DNA from: Chitinophaga pinensis
Lineage (GTDB): Bacteria; Bacteroidota; Bacteroidia; Flavobacteriales_D; Crocinitomicaceae
Reading direction: 5' to 3'
Length of the DNA stretch: 64,000 nucleotides
NCBI GenBank assembly: GCA_945902745.1
Contig: CAMDNE010000001.1
Span: 62,001 to 126,000 of the forward strand
A model generated the notes under the pieces. The model did not search any database, had not been told where the DNA came from, and worked only from the letters and a program-made list of their open reading frames with translations. Positions 5,578 through 15,989 of the stretch are shown in pieces (within the stretch, counting starts at the first letter, position 1; each line of letters opens with the position of its first letter). Both the position numbers and the translations under genes were made by a program.

Positions 5578-6505
5578 GGATATCGCTAATAGTGTCGTTT
5601 AATTGCTTTGTAAATCGATTAGCAGCAGCTTCATTAAGGTGAGTAACATCCGTATAATCATCAAGTGTCCATCCTTTTTGTTCAGAGTAATTTACAAAGT
5701 GTACGTCACTGTTAGAGAATGATTTAATGAAAGTATTAAACTCAATAATGTCTTTACGCTCATAATTGACTAGTGCGTTCTTTCTTGCAGGCATCATCGT
5801 TAAAAAGACTTCTATTTCGTGCTTTTTGCAGTATTCAAGAATTAATTTAAAGTACTTTTCTTGAAAGGGTAATCGTTTAATTGAATACTTAGCTTTATCA
5901 TCCTTTGTGGCTTGGTGTGGATTTAAATATTGTCCATTATCTCTTTGAAATCGAGGGCTACTCGAAGAAGAGAATAAATTTTGTAAATATTTCATTCTAT
6001 TAACGTCTAGAATCATCGTTCTATCGAGAAATAGAGTATACGCATTCGACTCTGGATAGTCCTTTTTATAGTCGTCGTTCAGATAAGAATTGTAGATATA
6101 ATTTCTTGTTGCCGATAGAACGTTAAACTGAAAATAGTCAACTCCGAGAACTAAATAATTGAAATCGATATCGTGTTCCTCCATCCAAATTATTTTGTAA
6201 TAAATTTGATTGTAAGAGTCGTTATCATGTGAGAAATTAAAGGCTGGAATTTCTAAAACTGTTGGATTGATTCCTCTGTAAGTTCCAGAATTCCCTAGAA
6301 TAACTAGGTCAAATGGTATTTCTTTCACTTTCTGAAAGCTCTTATCGATTTGCTGGCCTGTGCTTGGACCTTGTTCTTTTGCTATTTGCTCAGGTAGAAT
6401 ATATAAGGAAATAACAAAGTAAATTCCTAGTGACAGGAACGTAAATAAGAGCACTTTAACTAAGAATTCTTTCATCATCTTAAAATTGGAAATAAATGAA
6501 CTCAT
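5567..6505 (-). CDS. SGNH/DHHW-like protein paired with an MBOAT acyltransferase
   Basis: The 312-aa protein has one N-terminal membrane anchor (around residues 15-35) followed by an extracytoplasmic domain. An LVILGNSGTYRGI segment near residue 70 resembles block I of SGNH-like proteins, and DVTHLNEAAANRF near residue 288 supplies the C-terminal D-x-x-H pair, the arrangement seen in AlgJ/AlgX and DltD-like partners of MBOAT proteins. It overlaps the upstream MBOAT gene by 26 bases. The likely role is accepting an acyl group from the membrane enzyme and attaching it to a surface polysaccharide; the substrate is unknown. Confidence 0.75.
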   Translation of the reverse strand: MSSFISNFKMMKEFLVKVLLFTFLSLGIYFVISLYILPEQIAKEQGPSTGQQIDKSFQKVKEIPFDLVILGNSGTYRGINPTVLEIPAFNFSHDNDSYNQIYYKIIWMEEHDIDFNYLVLGVDYFQFNVLSATRNYIYNSYLNDDYKKDYPESNAYTLFLDRTMILDVNRMKYLQNLFSSSSSPRFQRDNGQYLNPHQATKDDKAKYSIKRLPFQEKYFKLILEYCKKHEIEVFLTMMPARKNALVNYERKDIIEFNTFIKSFSNSDVHFVNYSEQKGWTLDDYTDVTHLNEAAANRFTKQLNDTISDILKH

Positions 6506-7916
6506 GACTTTCAGTAGAGTATATAAATAACGAAGCGAAAAGTAATAAATAGAGTAACCATCTTAATGGACGAAACCATTTTAACCCGAGTTTAGCGATT
6601 GCATACTCCTGCTCTCTACCATACCATTCAATAAGCAGAAAAATGACAAGTAAACGAAGTTGCATTTTCGGTAAACTAATTGGTATTGAAAAAATTGAAT
6701 CTGTAAAAATATTAGAGATATAAGTGAATGCATGGGTGAGGTCATCAGCTCTGAAAAAGATCCAAGCAAACACAGTTAAACTAAACGTAACTCCAATGGA
6801 AAACATATCTTTTAGATTAGGTATATAATTCCCTTTTGCAACAATTTCAAGATTATTTCTATTTGTATTAAATATTATTGAAGGCATTATATATAAAGCA
6901 TTTAGAAATCCCCAAACAATAAATGTCCAATTTGCTCCATGCCAAAAACCACTTAGAAGAAAAATAATAAAGGTATTCCTAATCTTCATCCACATTCCTC
7001 CTTTACTGCCACCTAATGGAATGTAGAGATAGTCTTTAAACCAAGAAGAAAGGGAAATGTGCCATCGTCTCCAAAATTCGGCAATGTCTCTTGAAAAATA
7101 CGGAAAAGCAAAGTTTCTTAAAAGGTCTATACCGAAAAGTCGAGCTGTTCCCAAAGCAATATCAGAATACCCTGAAAAATCACCATAAATTTGGAAAGTA
7201 AAAAATATAGCACCTGCAACAAGTGTGCTTCCTGAATAGTCTGCCGAATTATTAAAAATTTGATTTGCATATTCAGCGCATTGGTCAGCAATGACGACTT
7301 TCTTAAATAATCCCCATAAAATTTGTCTTAAACCATCTACTGCTTTAGTATAATCAAATGTTCTCTTTTTTTGAATTTGAGGTAAAAGATGAGTTGCTCT
7401 TTCTATAGGGCCAGCAACTAAGAGTGGAAAAAAACTAACGAAAACAGAATAATCTATAAAGTTCTTCTCTGCTTTTATTCGGTCTTTGTAAATATCGATT
7501 ACATATGATAAACCATGAAACGTATAAAACGAAATTCCTACGGGTAAAATAACTTTTAATGTCCATGGGTTAACATGTAATCCTATGTCATCTAATGCAC
7601 TTGCAAAAGATTCAGCAAAGAAATTGTAATATTTAAAAACACCAAGAAAACCAAGATTAACAGATATGCTTAACCAAAACCAAAACTTTTTTGACTTTTG
7701 ATTTTTAGCGTCCGACATTTTTATTCCTGTAAAATAATCAAGCAGGGTTGAAAAAAATAAAAGGAATAGAAACCGCCAGTCCCAACAAGCATAAAAAAAG
7801 TAGCTTGAAACTAAGAGTAAAATATTTTGAAGTTTTAAATTTCCTTTTGTCGCAAACCAATAAATGAAAAATACAATAGGTAAAAAAATCGCAAAGTTTA
7901 ATGAGTAAAAAAGCAT
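6480..7916 (-). CDS. MBOAT-family O-acyltransferase (AlgI-like)
   Basis: This polytopic membrane protein (478 aa, usual for the family) is a membrane-bound O-acyltransferase that moves acyl groups across the inner membrane for modification of an exported polymer. The family motif FWRRWHISLSSWFKDYLYIP lies near residue 280 and the catalytic His is in SGFWHGANWTF near residue 325. The N terminus FYSLNFAIFLPIVFFIYW is typical of AlgI/PatA-type members. It overlaps the downstream SGNH gene, forming a two-gene operon. No polysaccharide synthesis genes adjoin, so the acceptor cannot be assigned. Confidence 0.9.
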   Translation of the reverse strand: MLFYSLNFAIFLPIVFFIYWFATKGNLKLQNILLLVSSYFFYACWDWRFLFLLFFSTLLDYFTGIKMSDAKNQKSKKFWFWLSISVNLGFLGVFKYYNFFAESFASALDDIGLHVNPWTLKVILPVGISFYTFHGLSYVIDIYKDRIKAEKNFIDYSVFVSFFPLLVAGPIERATHLLPQIQKKRTFDYTKAVDGLRQILWGLFKKVVIADQCAEYANQIFNNSADYSGSTLVAGAIFFTFQIYGDFSGYSDIALGTARLFGIDLLRNFAFPYFSRDIAEFWRRWHISLSSWFKDYLYIPLGGSKGGMWMKIRNTFIIFLLSGFWHGANWTFIVWGFLNALYIMPSIIFNTNRNNLEIVAKGNYIPNLKDMFSIGVTFSLTVFAWIFFRADDLTHAFTYISNIFTDSIFSIPISLPKMQLRLLVIFLLIEWYGREQEYAIAKLGLKWFRPLRWLLYLLLFASLFIYSTESHEFIYFQF

Positions 7917-8116: not shown

Positions 8117-8200
8117 GAGTTCAATCTAGCAAGAATCTTATTGGTTTGCAACGGTCTGTTAAAAGGAAGTGCTTTTTGTTGAAAAAACGGGAGTTTTCAA
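8117..8200 (+). repeat. Module-junction repeat, copy A
   Basis: About 84 bases beginning GAGTTCAATCTAGCAAGAAT are nearly identical to copy B at 10329. Only a few substitutions and a one- or two-base gap separate them. Copies A and B are direct repeats that bracket the three-gene nuclease cassette at 8276-10310. More diverged copies occur at 12713 and 15990, with a partial one at 13833. A spurious plus-strand ORF (7901-8182) runs through it. The rest of the gap between the MBOAT start and this cassette (7917-8275) holds nothing else I can support. Confidence 0.85.
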
Positions 8201-8275
8201 CTATTTGAAGTAGGTGAAAACCGTTGTTATAGGTGTCCAAAGATTTTATTGTAGATTGATAGAAACCATATAAAT

Positions 8276-8689
8276 TTATTCATCATCTATGTCATTGTCC
8301 TTTTTTCCTTTCCAACTTTCACTGTCTATAAGTTCTTTTAATTTTCGATACATTTCTTTGTCGTCTTCATAAAATTCAGATTCAACATCAATAAGTTTTA
8401 ATCCCAATTCATAATAAGCTTTAGAATTTTTTATTTGACCCAAGTCACAATGAAGTTGAGAAATGAATCCTATAATGTCAATTATCATCGATTTGTTGCT
8501 AGAATAATTACTCATTTCCATTGCAAATTTTCCGTCTGTGATTGCTGATAGAAATAGTCCTTTCTTTGCTTGTTCAACCGCTCTTTGAAAAAATATATCT
8601 GTTTGTTCAAAGTATTGTTCGCCAAATTTTTCTACTATTTGGTTTTTAAAAGAAAGAAAGTCATCGTTGATATTTATTTCGTTTTCCAT
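8276..8689 (-). CDS. Small helical (TPR-like) protein of the nuclease cassette
   Basis: The 137-aa protein is not a family I recognise by name. It is strongly helical and acidic at the C terminus (KDNDIDDE). Two stretches, AVEQAKKGLFLSAITDGKFA and LGQIKNSKAYYELGLKLI, resemble tetratricopeptide helices, so a binding or scaffolding role is plausible. It has no signal peptide and is probably cytoplasmic. It lies 14 bases downstream of the NucS-like gene and 586 bases from the MBOAT operon, so it is most likely the last gene of a three-gene operon. Its function is inferred only from context. Confidence 0.6.
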   Translation of the reverse strand: MENEININDDFLSFKNQIVEKFGEQYFEQTDIFFQRAVEQAKKGLFLSAITDGKFAMEMSNYSSNKSMIIDIIGFISQLHCDLGQIKNSKAYYELGLKLIDVESEFYEDDKEMYRKLKELIDSESWKGKKDNDIDDE

Positions 8690-8703
8690 TTTTGAAATAC
8701 ATT

Positions 8704-9393
8704 TTATTCTTTTTCAAAAATTACCTTATCCATTATTACGTATTCTTTTGTTCTTTCACCTTCAAATACGTAATTGTATAATTCAACTTTGTCTGAAAGG
8801 TTATTTAACCTAACTGAAGTTTTTGATGTTGGTGCATTCCAAACGGCAATTTTTCTGGTATTCCCATTCCAAGTTTTACCAGTAATTATTTTAACTAGTT
8901 CTATAATTAAAGCGCTTTTGGGAATTATTACCTTTTCTTCAAAGTCAATTGTTTGTTGCTTGACTTTATTATTTCTTAAAGATTTTAATTCTATTATGGC
9001 TAAATTGTTATTTGAATCTATCGCAAGGATGTCATTAACAATTCGTTTCTTATCGTTTAATTGAACAGCCATTTCAGAAGTGATAAATGTGAAATCCCCA
9101 AATGGTAAAATTCCATTATTGTTAAGAGAATGATTGATAATAAAAGCTTGTAAATTCTTTTCTTCAGTGATACGTCCTGTTTTCGTGAATTTTTGTTGTT
9201 CATTTATCTTTAAATACTTTTCCGCCTGTTCTAATGAGGTTAATCCACTTTTACCACGTTCGGGAGATAATTGGCTAACAGAAACAATTGAAAATGATTT
9301 AAAATTCCCTCTAAAATGCAATTGCTTTTCAAGCAAAAAAGCATGATGCTTATCATTTAATTCTTTAGCGAGTTTAAAATATTTTAAGTTCAT
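8704..9393 (-). CDS. NucS-like PD-(D/E)XK domain protein
   Basis: The 229-aa cytoplasmic protein carries a probable PD-(D/E)XK core: Asp121 in RIVNDILAID, then after a short hairpin Glu135-Leu-Lys137 in LAIIELKSLR. The D-x13-ELK spacing and the preceding EEKNLQAFIINH helix resemble the C-terminal nuclease domain of NucS/EndoMS proteins. No N-terminal NucS DNA-binding domain is evident; residues 1-75 are unassigned. It lies 5 bases downstream of a second PD-(D/E)XK gene, so both are likely cotranslated. Restriction or defence is an inference; activity is undemonstrated. Confidence 0.6.
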   Translation of the reverse strand: MNLKYFKLAKELNDKHHAFLLEKQLHFRGNFKSFSIVSVSQLSPERGKSGLTSLEQAEKYLKINEQQKFTKTGRITEEKNLQAFIINHSLNNNGILPFGDFTFITSEMAVQLNDKKRIVNDILAIDSNNNLAIIELKSLRNNKVKQQTIDFEEKVIIPKSALIIELVKIITGKTWNGNTRKIAVWNAPTSKTSVRLNNLSDKVELYNYVFEGERTKEYVIMDKVIFEKE

Positions 9394-9398
9394 ATATT

Positions 9399-10310
9399 TT
9401 ACAATGTTCCTAAATAACGCTCCTCAAGTTCCTTTGTCCATTCCGTGTTGTGAATATTTCTCAAGGTCCTTATGAAGTCGTCTAGGTGTCTTGGGTAAAA
9501 GCCTGTTAGTTCTTCATTTTCAGAATTAAGATGTTTGATATATTCGTTAATGCCGTTTTGGCAATGAGTATTTTCTTTAGGGAAGAGGAATACAAAAAAG
9601 CCTTCATCATAATCTTTGAGATGTGCAATCGATAGTAAATGGTCACGCCAAATTTGAGAAAGAGGCACTTGTTTTACATTTTCTAATGCATTTGGTTTGA
9701 AATATTTGTCTGTTGTTAATCGCGTGTATTCTTTTTGATGCTTATTAAAAGTATTATTTGCATTTTCTTTTGATTCTTCTCTTAAACTTTCCGAATATTT
9801 AACTTCTATTCCTATAAATCCTTTCTTGTTGTTGTTCGTATATTCAACAAAAACGTCAAATGCGGATCGGTCTCCAGTATATTCAATGTTTTGTCGTCCA
9901 GCAGAATATTCAAACCTAATTGAAGTAACTTTCTCAATTCTCGTTGGAAAAAGATTTTGGAAAAAGGTTGTAGCCAGCTCTAAGTCATAATGCAGTTCGC
10001 CAAACAAATTAAAGCACAAAGGCTGAGATGATAGTAAATTATTCCAAATTCTCGGTTCACTAATCATTGCACCGTCCTTTTTGGCGTTTGCCACAGCAAT
10101 TGTTATGAGTTCTTTAATATTGTCTGTTAAATAATTTGCTTTGCTCGTTTTAGCAAATTCTATTTCTAAAAAGTTGCCAAGTTTTAATTCAGGATAACCT
10201 TTTTTGTCACGCCACTTACTTTGAAGCAGTCGGGCAAAAGCAGCATAGTCTGTATCCAAAGTGTAGTGGACATTGAATTTTATTTGCTCTTCTTTACTAG
10301 GACGAGTCAT
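9399..10310 (-). CDS. PGN_0703-like PD-(D/E)XK restriction-endonuclease-like protein
   Basis: The 303-aa protein resembles the PGN_0703-type putative restriction endonucleases. The predicted catalytic core is Asp152 in SAFDVFVEY and Glu169-Val-Lys171 in FIGIEVKYSE, with an additional acidic residue in IRFEYSAGRQ (Glu133). A C-terminal region with WRDHLLSIAH and GFFVFLFPKEN is also characteristic of this group as I know it. It starts with ATG 19 bases from copy B of the junction repeat and is the first gene of the cassette. It has no methyltransferase neighbour, so it is not a standard type II system. Confidence 0.65.
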   Translation of the reverse strand: MTRPSKEEQIKFNVHYTLDTDYAAFARLLQSKWRDKKGYPELKLGNFLEIEFAKTSKANYLTDNIKELITIAVANAKKDGAMISEPRIWNNLLSSQPLCFNLFGELHYDLELATTFFQNLFPTRIEKVTSIRFEYSAGRQNIEYTGDRSAFDVFVEYTNNNKKGFIGIEVKYSESLREESKENANNTFNKHQKEYTRLTTDKYFKPNALENVKQVPLSQIWRDHLLSIAHLKDYDEGFFVFLFPKENTHCQNGINEYIKHLNSENEELTGFYPRHLDDFIRTLRNIHNTEWTKELEERYLGTL

Positions 10311-10328: not shown

Positions 10329-10415
10329 GAGTTCAATCTACCAAGAATCTTATTGGTTTGCAACGGGTTTGTTAAAAGGAAGTGCATTTTGTTGAAAAAA
10401 CGGGAGTTATTAACT
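10329..10415 (+). repeat. Module-junction repeat, copy B
   Basis: This copy begins GAGTTCAATCTACCAAGAAT and continues through GCAACGGGTTTGTTAAAAGG to an ACGGGAGTTATTAACT end. It is nearly identical to copy A and lies in the same orientation on the other side of the nuclease cassette, immediately upstream of its first start codon. Confidence 0.85.
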
Positions 10416-11134: not shown

Positions 11135-11910
11135 AAATATCAATTAATAATATCAAACCAACTAATGTCCCTTAGGGACGGATGTTCTAACAAATTGTTT
11201 TTTGGAAATGAAAATTAACCCCACAATTTTGTATAGTCCCTACGGGACACTATCGCAAATGATAAATCATTTGCTAGAGCTATGCAGTCCCTACGGGACA
11301 TTTGTTGAAAACAAACGATTGATTCGAAAAGACAAAATAAACGCACCTAATTTTGTGCAGTCCCTGCGGGACAGATTTTAAAAACAAACGGTTGATTCGA
11401 AAAGACAAAATATTCGACCCGAAATTTTGTGCAGTCCCTACGGGACAGATGTTGAAAACAAACGGTTGATTCGAAAAGACAAAATATACGACCCAAATTT
11501 TATGTGTTCAATTTGGGACAGATGTTCAAAACAAACGGTTGATTCGAAAAGACAAAATATTCGACCCGAAATTTTGTGCAGTCCCTACGGGACAGATGTT
11601 GAAAACAAACGATTGATTCGAAAAGACAAAATATACGACCCAAATTTTATGTGGTCAATTTGGGACAGATGCTCAAAACAAACTGTTGATTCGAAAAGAC
11701 AAAATATTCGACCCAAATTTTTTGCAGTCCCTACGGGACAGATATTGAAACAAATTGTTTTTCGAAATTCATTAAAAGCGATGTGCCAATTACGAAAAAT
11801 ACAAATGTAAATTAGTGCTTTCCAAATAAAAAATAATGTCCCGTAGGGACTGCATCGCTCTAGCAAATGTCAATTTGCGTATATTTTTTTGTCCCGTAGG
11901 GACTATACCA
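11135..11910. repeat. REP-like palindrome island I (left of the IS200-like transposase)
   Basis: Canonical or near-canonical GTCCC-TAC-GGGAC palindromes occur at 11167, 11236, 11287, 11360, 11434, 11581, 11727, 11838 and 11891. Those at 11236/11287 and 11838/11891 pair into composite elements with a central GCAAAT/ATTTGC hairpin, and the two composites are in opposite orientation. Between them lies a tandem array of about 73-bp units. The flank ATTAATAATATCAAACCAA just before the first palindrome recurs at 16068, marking an element edge. The whole gap 11070-11963 contains no supported gene; ORFs in the track here run through the repeats. Confidence 0.9.
11300..11740 (+). repeat. Tandem array, about 73-bp unit with 147-bp higher order
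   Basis: Units carry a GTCCCTACGGGAC palindrome, then ACAAACGGTTGATTCGAAAAG, then ACAAAATATTCGACCCGAAA and TTTTGTGCA. Palindromes fall 73, 74, 147 and 146 bases apart because every second later unit has a degenerate palindrome (GTGTTCAATTTGGGAC or GTGGTCAATTTGGGAC). The higher-order unit is divisible by three, which keeps a spurious plus-strand frame open. Confidence 0.85.
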
Positions 11911-11963
11911 TTCAACAATGCAGGTAAACATTAAATGTTTCAATAATGCCATTCGGTAAAAAA

Positions 11964-12425
11964 TCACATCAATTCGTGGAATACATATTTTTCATTATAA
12001 TCAATCTCAAATTTTTCTAGAAATGCGATATATTCATCATGAAATGATGTTTTTTTATGATGAATTTCTTGGTTGTCAATGTAATTTACAATTTTAGTAA
12101 GTTGTGATTGACCATAAGAAAAAGCACCATAACCTTCTTGCCATTCAAATTTCCTTCTGGTAAAATTATTTTCATTTATCCATTTAGATGAATTTTGTTT
12201 TACTGCTTTCATCAATTCTGAAAATGATTGAACAGGTTTGTATCCAACTAAAATGTGGATATGATCTTCAACCCCATTTATTGCAATAAGTTTATGTCCC
12301 AAACCATTAACAGTTCCTGTAATATATTTGTAAAGTTGATCTTTCCAATATTTTTCTATGACACCATTTCTGTATTTCACGGTAAATACAAATTGAATAT
12401 AAATTTGTGTGTAGGTATTTGGCAT
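11964..12425 (-). CDS. IS200/IS605-type Y1 transposase, REP-associated (RAYT-like)
   Basis: The 153-aa protein is a single-domain HUH transposase. The metal-binding HUH motif is EDHIHILVGY (His55 and His57), and the likely catalytic tyrosine is Tyr115 in IVNYIDNQEIHH. The N terminus TYTQIYIQFVFTVKYR matches Y1_Tnp proteins. Such enzymes cut and join single-stranded DNA at hairpin ends. Here the gene sits alone between two sets of GTCCC/GGGAC palindromes, the arrangement of REP-associated tyrosine transposases. No TnpB gene is present. All key residues are intact, so it may be active. Confidence 0.85.
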   Translation of the reverse strand: MPNTYTQIYIQFVFTVKYRNGVIEKYWKDQLYKYITGTVNGLGHKLIAINGVEDHIHILVGYKPVQSFSELMKAVKQNSSKWINENNFTRRKFEWQEGYGAFSYGQSQLTKIVNYIDNQEIHHKKTSFHDEYIAFLEKFEIDYNEKYVFHELM

Positions 12426-12489
12426 AAAATGTATGAATGTGTTTAAATGTTAACTACCTGAAGATACGACTATTATTTTTTCAAACCAA

Positions 12490-12690
12490 ACAGATAATTC
12501 GAAATGATAAAATAAATAATCCGAATTTTGTGCAGTCCCTACGGGACATTATCGCAAATGATAAATCATTTGCTAGAGCTATGCAGTCCCTACGGGACAG
12601 ATGTTCATAGCAAATAGATAATTCGAAATGACAGAATAAACACCCTGAATTTTGGGTAGCCCCAAAAGGACAGATGTTTAAAACAATTTG
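12490..12690. repeat. REP-like palindromes right of the transposase
   Basis: Palindromes at 12535 and 12586 form a composite element with GCAAATGATAAATCATTTGC between them, in the same orientation and with the same inner stem as the copy at 11236-11299. A partial tandem unit precedes it, and a degenerate unit (GTAGCCCCAAAAGGAC) follows near 12657. Together with island I these palindromes flank the transposase gene. The gap 12426-12826 holds only these and junction repeat C. Confidence 0.88.
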
Positions 12691-12712
12691 TTTTCCGAAA
12701 TTCATTAAAAAC

Positions 12713-12795
12713 AAGTTCAATCTAGGAAGAATCTTTAACGTACGCAACGGGTTGGGGGGAGAAAGGTGTTTTGTTTGAACACATGAAGCTTCCAA
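12713..12795 (+). repeat. Module-junction repeat, copy C (diverged)
   Basis: It begins AAGTTCAATCTAGGAAGAATC and retains CGCAACGGGTTG and TTTTGTTTGAACAC. It lies between the transposase unit and the 3' end of the Fic gene, in the same orientation as copies A, B and D. Confidence 0.7.
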
Positions 12796-12826: not shown

Positions 12827-13780
12827 TTAGATGAATTTATACATTGTATTACTTTTATCACCTTCTTTTTCAAATAGCCCAAGTGCTATTCCTAATTTCA
12901 AATCACGACTTGCTGTTGCGGTAGAAATTTCTTGAAAAACGGACATGTACGCTTTTCTATTAAAGGGTACTTTGTTTGTTTCTGAAAAATAAGTCAACCG
13001 ATCTTCAGAATTCATGACTTTCGCATTGAAATCGAGCAAAGTGGCTAATGATTCATCAATAACATTTAGCATATATTCGATGAATGGAGTCGAATTTCCA
13101 GAATTATCACTTTGCGCAAGAGCCGTGTAATAGGCTTGTTGTGTTTTATGGATCACGTTTTCAAAAGGTATAAATTCAAAGACCGGATATTGCTTCATCA
13201 GAATCAATGTTTGCCATAATCTTCCCATTCTGCCATTGCCATCGATGAAAGGATGAATGAATTCCATTTCATAATGAAAAACACAACTTTTAATCAATTG
13301 AATTTCCGAAGAAGACTTTAAATAGGCAAATAGGTCATTCATCAAAAATGGAACATTATGCGCTGGTGGAGCCATGTGGGCAAGTTTTTCTCCAGCAACA
13401 ATACCAACGCCTCTTTTGCGAAATTTACCATTGTCAACAACGAGTCCGTTCATGAGTGTTTCATGAGCAGATAAAAAGGATTTTACTGACTCAGGATTGA
13501 AATTATGAAGCTGATTATACACCTTTATGGCATTCAACACTTCATTGACATCTTTCTCCGGCCCGATAACACGTTTGTTTTCAATGATTGCAGTAATCTG
13601 TTCTTCTGAAAGGGTATTTCCCTCAATGCTTAAGGAAGCATGAATTGTTTTTATCGTGTTTTCTTTTCTGAGTTTAAGGGACGGTTTATCGAGGTATTTT
13701 GCATTGACCTGACCAATCTTTTCCGAAATGGATGCAACTAAACGGAGTATTTCAGAAGTGATTTGATACGGCGGATTCAT
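12827..13780 (-). CDS. Fic-domain protein (putative AMPylator)
   Basis: Fic proteins transfer AMP or related groups to hydroxyl side chains. The catalytic motif HPFIDGNGRMGR is complete at residues 181-192 of the track ORF, with an N-terminal inhibitory motif SIEGN at 56-60, so this is a self-inhibited class II type. The C-terminal 60 residues look like a winged helix, as in DNA-binding Fic proteins. I prefer the second ATG (MNPPYQITSEIL), because the first ATG at 13795 lies inside an operator-like palindrome and MNPP is the usual beginning of the family. Target proteins are unknown. Confidence 0.88.
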   Translation of the reverse strand: MNPPYQITSEILRLVASISEKIGQVNAKYLDKPSLKLRKENTIKTIHASLSIEGNTLSEEQITAIIENKRVIGPEKDVNEVLNAIKVYNQLHNFNPESVKSFLSAHETLMNGLVVDNGKFRKRGVGIVAGEKLAHMAPPAHNVPFLMNDLFAYLKSSSEIQLIKSCVFHYEMEFIHPFIDGNGRMGRLWQTLILMKQYPVFEFIPFENVIHKTQQAYYTALAQSDNSGNSTPFIEYMLNVIDESLATLLDFNAKVMNSEDRLTYFSETNKVPFNRKAYMSVFQEISTATASRDLKLGIALGLFEKEGDKSNTMYKFI

Positions 13781-13783
13781 AAC

Positions 13784-13810
13784 TGATACTATCATTTGAT
13801 ACTATCAAAT
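13784..13810 (-). promoter_or_regulatory. Tandem operator palindromes upstream of fic
   Basis: Two direct copies of TGATACTATCA start 13 bases apart (13784 and 13797). The second is embedded in a perfect 17-bp palindrome ATTTGATACTATCAAAT (13794-13810). They lie directly before the preferred fic start codon and overlap a TATATTTG -7-like box. Binding by the Fic C-terminal winged helix is an inference. Confidence 0.6.
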
Positions 13811-13832: not shown

Positions 13833-13872
13833 GTGTTTAAAAGGAAGTACTTTTTGTTTATAAAAGAGGTGG
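13833..13872 (+). repeat. Module-junction repeat, partial copy E
   Basis: GTGTTTAAAAGGAAGTACTTTTTGTTTATAAAA matches the second half of copies A and B. The first half (GAGTTCAATCTA) is absent. It lies between the fic promoter and the 3' end of the outer membrane protein gene. Confidence 0.6.
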
Positions 13873-15920: not shown

Positions 15921-15989
15921 TTTACTTGTTAAAAAAAGCGATAACCAAACCCGTTTCATTACCGTGTTAAAGAGGTTATATCTAAAAAC

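Follow-up and report, generated by a model that had tools for sequence, protein, structure and literature searches.

Three closely spaced genes (A, B and C) lie on the minus strand of the window, the whole 64,000-nucleotide stretch of DNA analysed here. They raise the question of whether two nuclease-like proteins and a small partner encoded side by side constitute a defence operon, or are neighbours for some other reason. The first-pass annotation had proposed an undescribed anti-phage or plasmid-restriction module. We examined the layout of the locus, the families of its products, and the company kept by their homologues in other genomes.

Layout of the locus and its repeats

The three open reading frames were re-checked and are exact in coordinates, strand and spacing, with the order A, B, C on the minus strand and gaps of 5 bp (A-B) and 14 bp (B-C) (Table 1). 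A scan of the eight neighbouring proteins between 5.6 and 13.8 kb of the window found no methyltransferase, and HsdM, HsdS and HsdR are absent at this locus. The earlier statement that no methyltransferase is present is right for the window locus and wrong for the type I relatives of the module described below.

Two repeat copies, one just upstream of A and one downstream of C, are 93% identical over 85 bp, with 0 such matches expected by chance. Weaker copies (63-74% pairwise) occur at 12714 and 15991, together with a fragment at 13837, and so the repeats do not uniquely bracket A-B-C; the direct repeats noticed at first are real, and belong to a five-copy set rather than marking the borders of a module. 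All five share one orientation and head successive minus-strand genes. Three of them lie 20-42 bp upstream of a gene (A, the Fic gene and a 461-aa gene starting at 15959), and the other two stand ~200-290 bp upstream of theirs. Outside this locus, the whole genome contains only short stray matches to the repeat. In the five-copy alignment, the best conserved part is TTG-N20-TAGATTG on the gene strand. The promoter consensus of Bacteroidota is of the -33/-7 type; the conserved part fits it, and the repeats are thus read as promoter-bearing. We infer that they are duplicated promoter segments, possibly aiding insertion by recombination, and not transposon ends. A reading as borders of a transposon or mobile element is unsupported, since the copies are confined to the locus and lie mostly upstream of genes. 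Integron attC sites were also considered and rejected, as the fold of the repeats is no better than that of shuffled sequences (z +0.5 to -1.4); a search of the genome for an integron integrase (TIGR02249) returned only tyrosine recombinases of generic type, all below the cut-off.

The surroundings had been described as a zone of mobile elements, which overstates the case: one IS200-like transposase with its repeats is present, and the remaining genes are mostly of housekeeping type. By eye, the larger open reading frames up to 40 kb of the window encode housekeeping-type or surface proteins. The transposase gene lies within a tandem array of RAYT/REP-like appearance, and a gene for a Fic/DOC-domain protein belongs to the stretch punctuated by the promoter-like repeats.

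Table 1. Features of the window and of related loci. Positions are those of the window or, for L numbers, of the respective locus.
Feature	Positions	Strand	Description
Gene A	9399..10310	-	303 aa, nuclease-like, PDDEXK_13 (PF20796); D152, E169, K171
Gene B	8704..9393	-	229 aa, basic (pI 9.45), well-supported NucS-type PD-(D/E)XK core; E78, D121, E135, K137
Gene C	8276..8689	-	137 aa, small acidic helical partner (pI 4.5, net charge -12)
Repeat copy	10330..10415	-	just upstream of A; TTG 10361-10363, TAGATTG 10334-10340
Repeat copy	8118..8202	-	downstream of C, upstream of MBOAT gene (6480-7916)
IS200-like (Y1_Tnp) transposase gene	11964-12425		
Tandem array around transposase gene	11167-12700		~73-bp repeats with GTCCCTACGGGAC palindromes
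Fic/DOC-domain protein gene	12827-13795		322 aa
L033, Crocinitomicaceae MAG			A-DHH-B; 4-bp overlap, 10-bp gap
L057			hsdM-hsdS-B-REase-ARP-hsdR; one extra gene between hsdM and hsdS
L058			hsdM-hsdS-B-REase-ARP-hsdR; one extra gene between REase-ARP and hsdR
L032, Gelidibacter MAG			MBL-B; 11-bp gap
L114			A-C; C directly after A, 1-bp overlap
L113			E-MBL-C
L115			MBL-E-C
L116			DUF2779/Cas4-like nuclease gene, 188-aa gene, then C
L112			C 240 bp behind DUF5677 gene
L117			weak C homologue beside BREX genes and TPR protein gene
L123-L128, plasmids of Ochrobactrum, Rhizobium, Sphingomonas (twice), Cereibacter, Cupriavidus			MBL + E-like ORF
L119	4709-5641		lone A homologue, phage-type contig
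L120	4926-5858		lone A homologue, phage-type contig
L121	4926-5840		lone A homologue, phage-type contig
L041	5199-6562		among closest relatives of A
L042	3738-5732		among closest relatives of A

Families of the three proteins

The product of gene A matches PDDEXK_13 (PF20796) with 261.5 bits (cut-off 27), covering profile positions 3-289 of 290, and it also matches the related family REase-ARP (PF22558) with 141 bits. The active site proposed in the first-pass annotation, D152...E169-V-K171, is present, and its residues are invariant in two six-member family alignments (A5, A9) of homologues that are 27-59% identical. An AlphaFold (AF2) model from six sequences has a mean pLDDT of 70, with values >90 in the strand-strand core of residues 151-170, where paired strands bear D152 and E169/K171. 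Foldseek with this model retrieved mainly restriction-type nucleases and put mostly PD-(D/E)XK enzymes at the top ranks (Nt.BspD6I, BstEII, Can2, Cdn1, HamA and MspJI), and no single match was at E <0.001. By its Pfam match A is classed as a PD-(D/E)XK protein, and the Foldseek ranking, which is no proof alone, agrees with that match.

Gene B belongs to no Pfam family above the cut-off, and its homologues score 14.3-15.9 bits against NucS_C, below the cut-off of 24 bits. The residues E78, D121, E135 and K137 are invariant in five homologues, two of them only 35-36% identical, and the proposed active site D121...E135-L-K137 is thereby retained down to 35% identity. A profile of the B homologues finds proteins of ~300 aa with DUF5655 and a weak NucS_C signal. 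By hhalign, the B set aligns over the active-site region with a set of 14 DUF5655/NucS-like sequences (probability 97.4, E 1.2e-11), and the profile of that set in turn matches the NucS structure 2vld (PDB; E 0.0019). Given this two-step profile chain and the invariant residues, a NucS-type PD-(D/E)XK core in B is well supported by sequence, in keeping with the nuclease-like character first ascribed to it. The AlphaFold model of B, from three sequences, was unusable (pLDDT 52), and Foldseek on it returned noise. No homology was detected when the profiles of A and B were compared, and it is therefore fair to call these two nuclease-like cores unrelated, as had been claimed; they represent two distinct families, one recognized through Pfam and the other through the profile chain.

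The third protein, C, shows marginal similarity to TPR (E 0.12). It had been described as small and TPR-like; small and helical it is, and small acidic helical protein is the safer name in view of this weak similarity. Homologues from related operons are 39-64% identical, and five of the six are strongly acidic (pI 4.5-4.7), the C of L112 being nearly neutral.

Recurrence and exchange of parts

The search for B made no use of A. Strict peptide patterns run over 85,000 species genomes gave two loci, and two more, in addition to the window, came from searching 395 genomes of the class with a profile. Four of the resulting five B genes stand in one tight operon with an A-family gene; a random-placement estimate for this is ~8e-11, which is a simple estimate that ignores the clustering of genes in operons, and the loci from which the hypothesis arose are part of the neighbour counts. 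About 400 genomes were sampled per search, and many of the loci come from MAGs. In L057 and L058, B touches both of its neighbours with overlaps of 4 and 1 bp, and the A-family gene, here termed A', encodes a REase-ARP protein (PF22558, 126-135 bits). The fifth B gene is in Gelidibacter (L032), where its neighbour is a gene for a beta-CASP metallo-beta-lactamase (MBL) nuclease and the partial genome yielded no PF20796 gene. B occurs in three of the 395 class genomes, and in 1/9 and 1/36 genomes of two orders; such a patchy distribution is as expected for horizontally moved defence genes. No B gene was found in viral contigs, phages or plasmids.

An independent search for C in 295 genomes recovered it directly after A (L114), beside MBL and a further gene, E (L113, L115), and in three other settings (Table 1); plasmids and viral contigs yielded no C. 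Four of the five B loci (L032, L033, L057 and L058) lack C. Homologues of the three genes do occur together, as the first-pass reading required, in the sense that most B genes have an A-family gene nearby, and that C accompanies A or, elsewhere, MBL and E. The trio as a fixed unit did not hold up: A, B and C were found together only in the window genome, and in other genomes parts are exchanged.

The MBL of L115, which adjoins E and C, is 76% identical to the Gelidibacter MBL, which adjoins B. Nearly the same MBL thus accompanies B in one genome and E with C in another, which identifies B, E and C as exchangeable partners of one effector. MBL has a beta-CASP family signal (NCBIfam RNase J at E 5e-16, far below the cut-off, and RMMBL also), and it was not present in the window genome at E 1e-20. 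E has no Pfam model. An invariant D...E-x-K pattern (RID..V...FWEAK) runs through all seven members aligned, and it is from this motif only that we call E PD-(D/E)XK-like, because its profile matches the NucS-like set weakly (E 0.023) and shows no detectable homology to B. An E-like ORF adjoins MBL in all six proteobacterial plasmid loci inspected, which were collected by tblastn with MBL followed by a look at the neighbours; for two of the six, the match to E is weak (2e-4 and 1.5e-5), and in the Ochrobactrum plasmid a 177-aa ORF lies between MBL and the E-like gene. Together with L113 and L115, these plasmid pairs have the look of a separate, uncatalogued two-gene module. In the Cereibacter plasmid, the pair is followed by a metallophosphoesterase gene and TniB/TniQ genes.

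Function, rival explanations and known systems

We consider it slightly favoured (a probability of about 0.55) that A-B-C is one operon of a modular nuclease-operon family, most likely performing restriction without a methyltransferase of its own. The slot of the effector nuclease would be taken by A (PDDEXK_13/REase-ARP) or by a beta-CASP MBL, once accompanied by a DHH phosphoesterase. A second slot, usually filled, would hold the PD-(D/E)XK-like B or E, serving as recognition subunit or additional nuclease, and a third, often filled, the small acidic C as a putative regulator. In the window, the basic B may bind or nick unusual incoming phage or plasmid DNA (ends, branches or unmodified sites), A would make the destructive cut and complete the destruction, and C might hold the complex together or keep it inactive until triggered. 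That the proteins form a complex, act on DNA, share the work in this way and counter invaders is our inference. A defence role is suggested by genomic company only, and it is supported by the two relatives, L057 and L058, inside type I restriction-modification operons, by the defence genes beside other A relatives, by the plasmid-borne MBL-E pairs and by the patchy distribution. Less easily fitted to this reading are the Gelidibacter B without any A in that partial genome, the position of L032 and L113 among housekeeping-type genes, and the lone A genes of phage-type contigs. The module first proposed is partly supported and is extended here; its function is a prediction, and the trio as a fixed unit is unsupported. 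We describe A-B-C as a probable nuclease-based defence operon of a variant kind in which effectors are exchanged, rather than as a proven system.

Three other explanations were weighed against this modular operon. If A, B or both were toxins and C their inhibitor (an antitoxin or DNA mimic), the locus would serve addiction or abortive infection. The small size of C, its strong acidity in five of six homologues, and its place at the end of the operon, where it overlaps or abuts a nuclease gene, favour such an arrangement. However, L033, L057, L058 and L032 carry one or more nucleases with B and no C, so that missing C does not make A or B lethal; these four of the five B loci speak against C as an obligatory antitoxin. 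Phage-type contigs also contain A on its own, and the nearly neutral C of L112 lies by a DUF5677 gene. We regard the toxin-antitoxin arrangement as improbable. An equally improbable alternative is a DNA repair or housekeeping nuclease set, in which B, being NucS-like, would cleave mismatches or junctions and A, MBL or DHH would process the products. Enzymes of repair and RNA decay are found among DHH and beta-CASP proteins, and these partners, like the NucS-type core of B, would suit such a set; L032 and L113 moreover sit among core, housekeeping-type genes with no obvious defence island. Yet B is very patchy (3/395 class genomes), relatives of the MBL-E pair are plasmid-borne, and B with A' is placed between hsdS and hsdR, which argues for a role other than repair.

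The organization of the locus itself might suggest that the three genes are independent cargo, chance neighbours in an insertion hot spot with repeated promoter segments. The related repeats at 8118, 10330, 12714, 13837 and 15991 separate several same-strand genes, and the GC content of A (0.342) is above that of B and C (0.286). The A-B and B-C junctions, however, carry no repeat copy, and A+B, A+C, MBL+B and MBL+E+C recur independently in other genomes with spacings of 0-14 bp. Chance cargo is already disfavoured by this recurrence of part combinations, and we consider it the least probable of the explanations.

The modular operon resembles several known families and systems in part. PF20796 and PF22558, matched by A end to end in the first case, with A' of L057 and L058 belonging to REase-ARP, are domain families and not systems, named without any pairing to B, C, MBL or DHH; neither accession nor family name was found in the open-access literature searched. 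The motif RIVNDILAID...IIELK of B resembles the C-terminal nuclease core of NucS/EndoMS through the profile chain, whereas its N-terminal half (invariant NxxxH...HFRG) and its operon context differ. A NucS-like PD-(D/E)XK core is likewise common to B and the PADLOC models PDC-S11 and PDC-S18 (E 1e-9 to 1e-4), but only ~45-95 residues of these 350-380-residue models match B; for PDC-S11, the match is restricted to model positions 7-93 of 358 (E 1.5e-6), short of full length. Both models stand for candidate systems of one gene, with neither A nor C. In the two type I restriction-modification operons, B and A' between hsdS and hsdR are extra genes and not core subunits. The MBL of the sister operons shares its beta-CASP signal and RMMBL with RNase J/aCPSF/Cas14 nucleases, but forms a separate branch paired with the PD-(D/E)XK-like E or with B. 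Pfam, NCBIfam, PADLOC 2.0 and the open-access literature were the yardstick for novelty. None of the system models of PADLOC and NCBIfam covers A, C, E or MBL, and no description of the module, including under REase-ARP, PDDEXK_13, PGN_0703 and MBL-fold two-gene systems, was found in the open-access literature searched; one could exist in subscription papers or preprints.

A broader proposal, to which we give somewhat less than an even chance, is that these are unnamed modular immune operons, in which unrelated effector nucleases (A, MBL, perhaps DHH or DUF2779) swap around a shared B/E plus C. One sensing and control module would then drive different DNA- or RNA-cutting weapons, which raises the question of how one small partner serves nucleases of different folds. 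No other locus found combines A, B and C, and the window locus thereby ties the operon variants together; if this reading is right, it is a Rosetta stone that links PDDEXK_13 genes of defence islands, extra genes of type I operons, and plasmid pairs of MBL and a hypothetical protein. It would also provide hypotheses of function for several families unnamed by Pfam, NCBIfam or PADLOC.

A-type genes were detected in 27 of 396 genomes of a phylum sample, and A-family genes elsewhere adjoin BREX pglZ/brxL, type I restriction-modification and deaminase genes. BREX-type genes (PglZ and/or BrxL-like) lie beside A-family genes in L049 and L050, and a YhcG/DUF1016 nuclease gene is located ~227 bp upstream of A in L035, L036 and L038. 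The lone A homologues of the phage-type contigs L119-L121 (39-43% identical) run opposite to the adjacent structural genes, beside a likely tape-measure gene recognized by eye, in the manner of phage morons. The closest relatives of A, in L041 and L042, show 58-59% identity; upstream of both lies a gene for a protein that contains HPDMVG...SYELKK and, judged by eye, is a further PD-(D/E)XK protein; this protein is truncated in L041.
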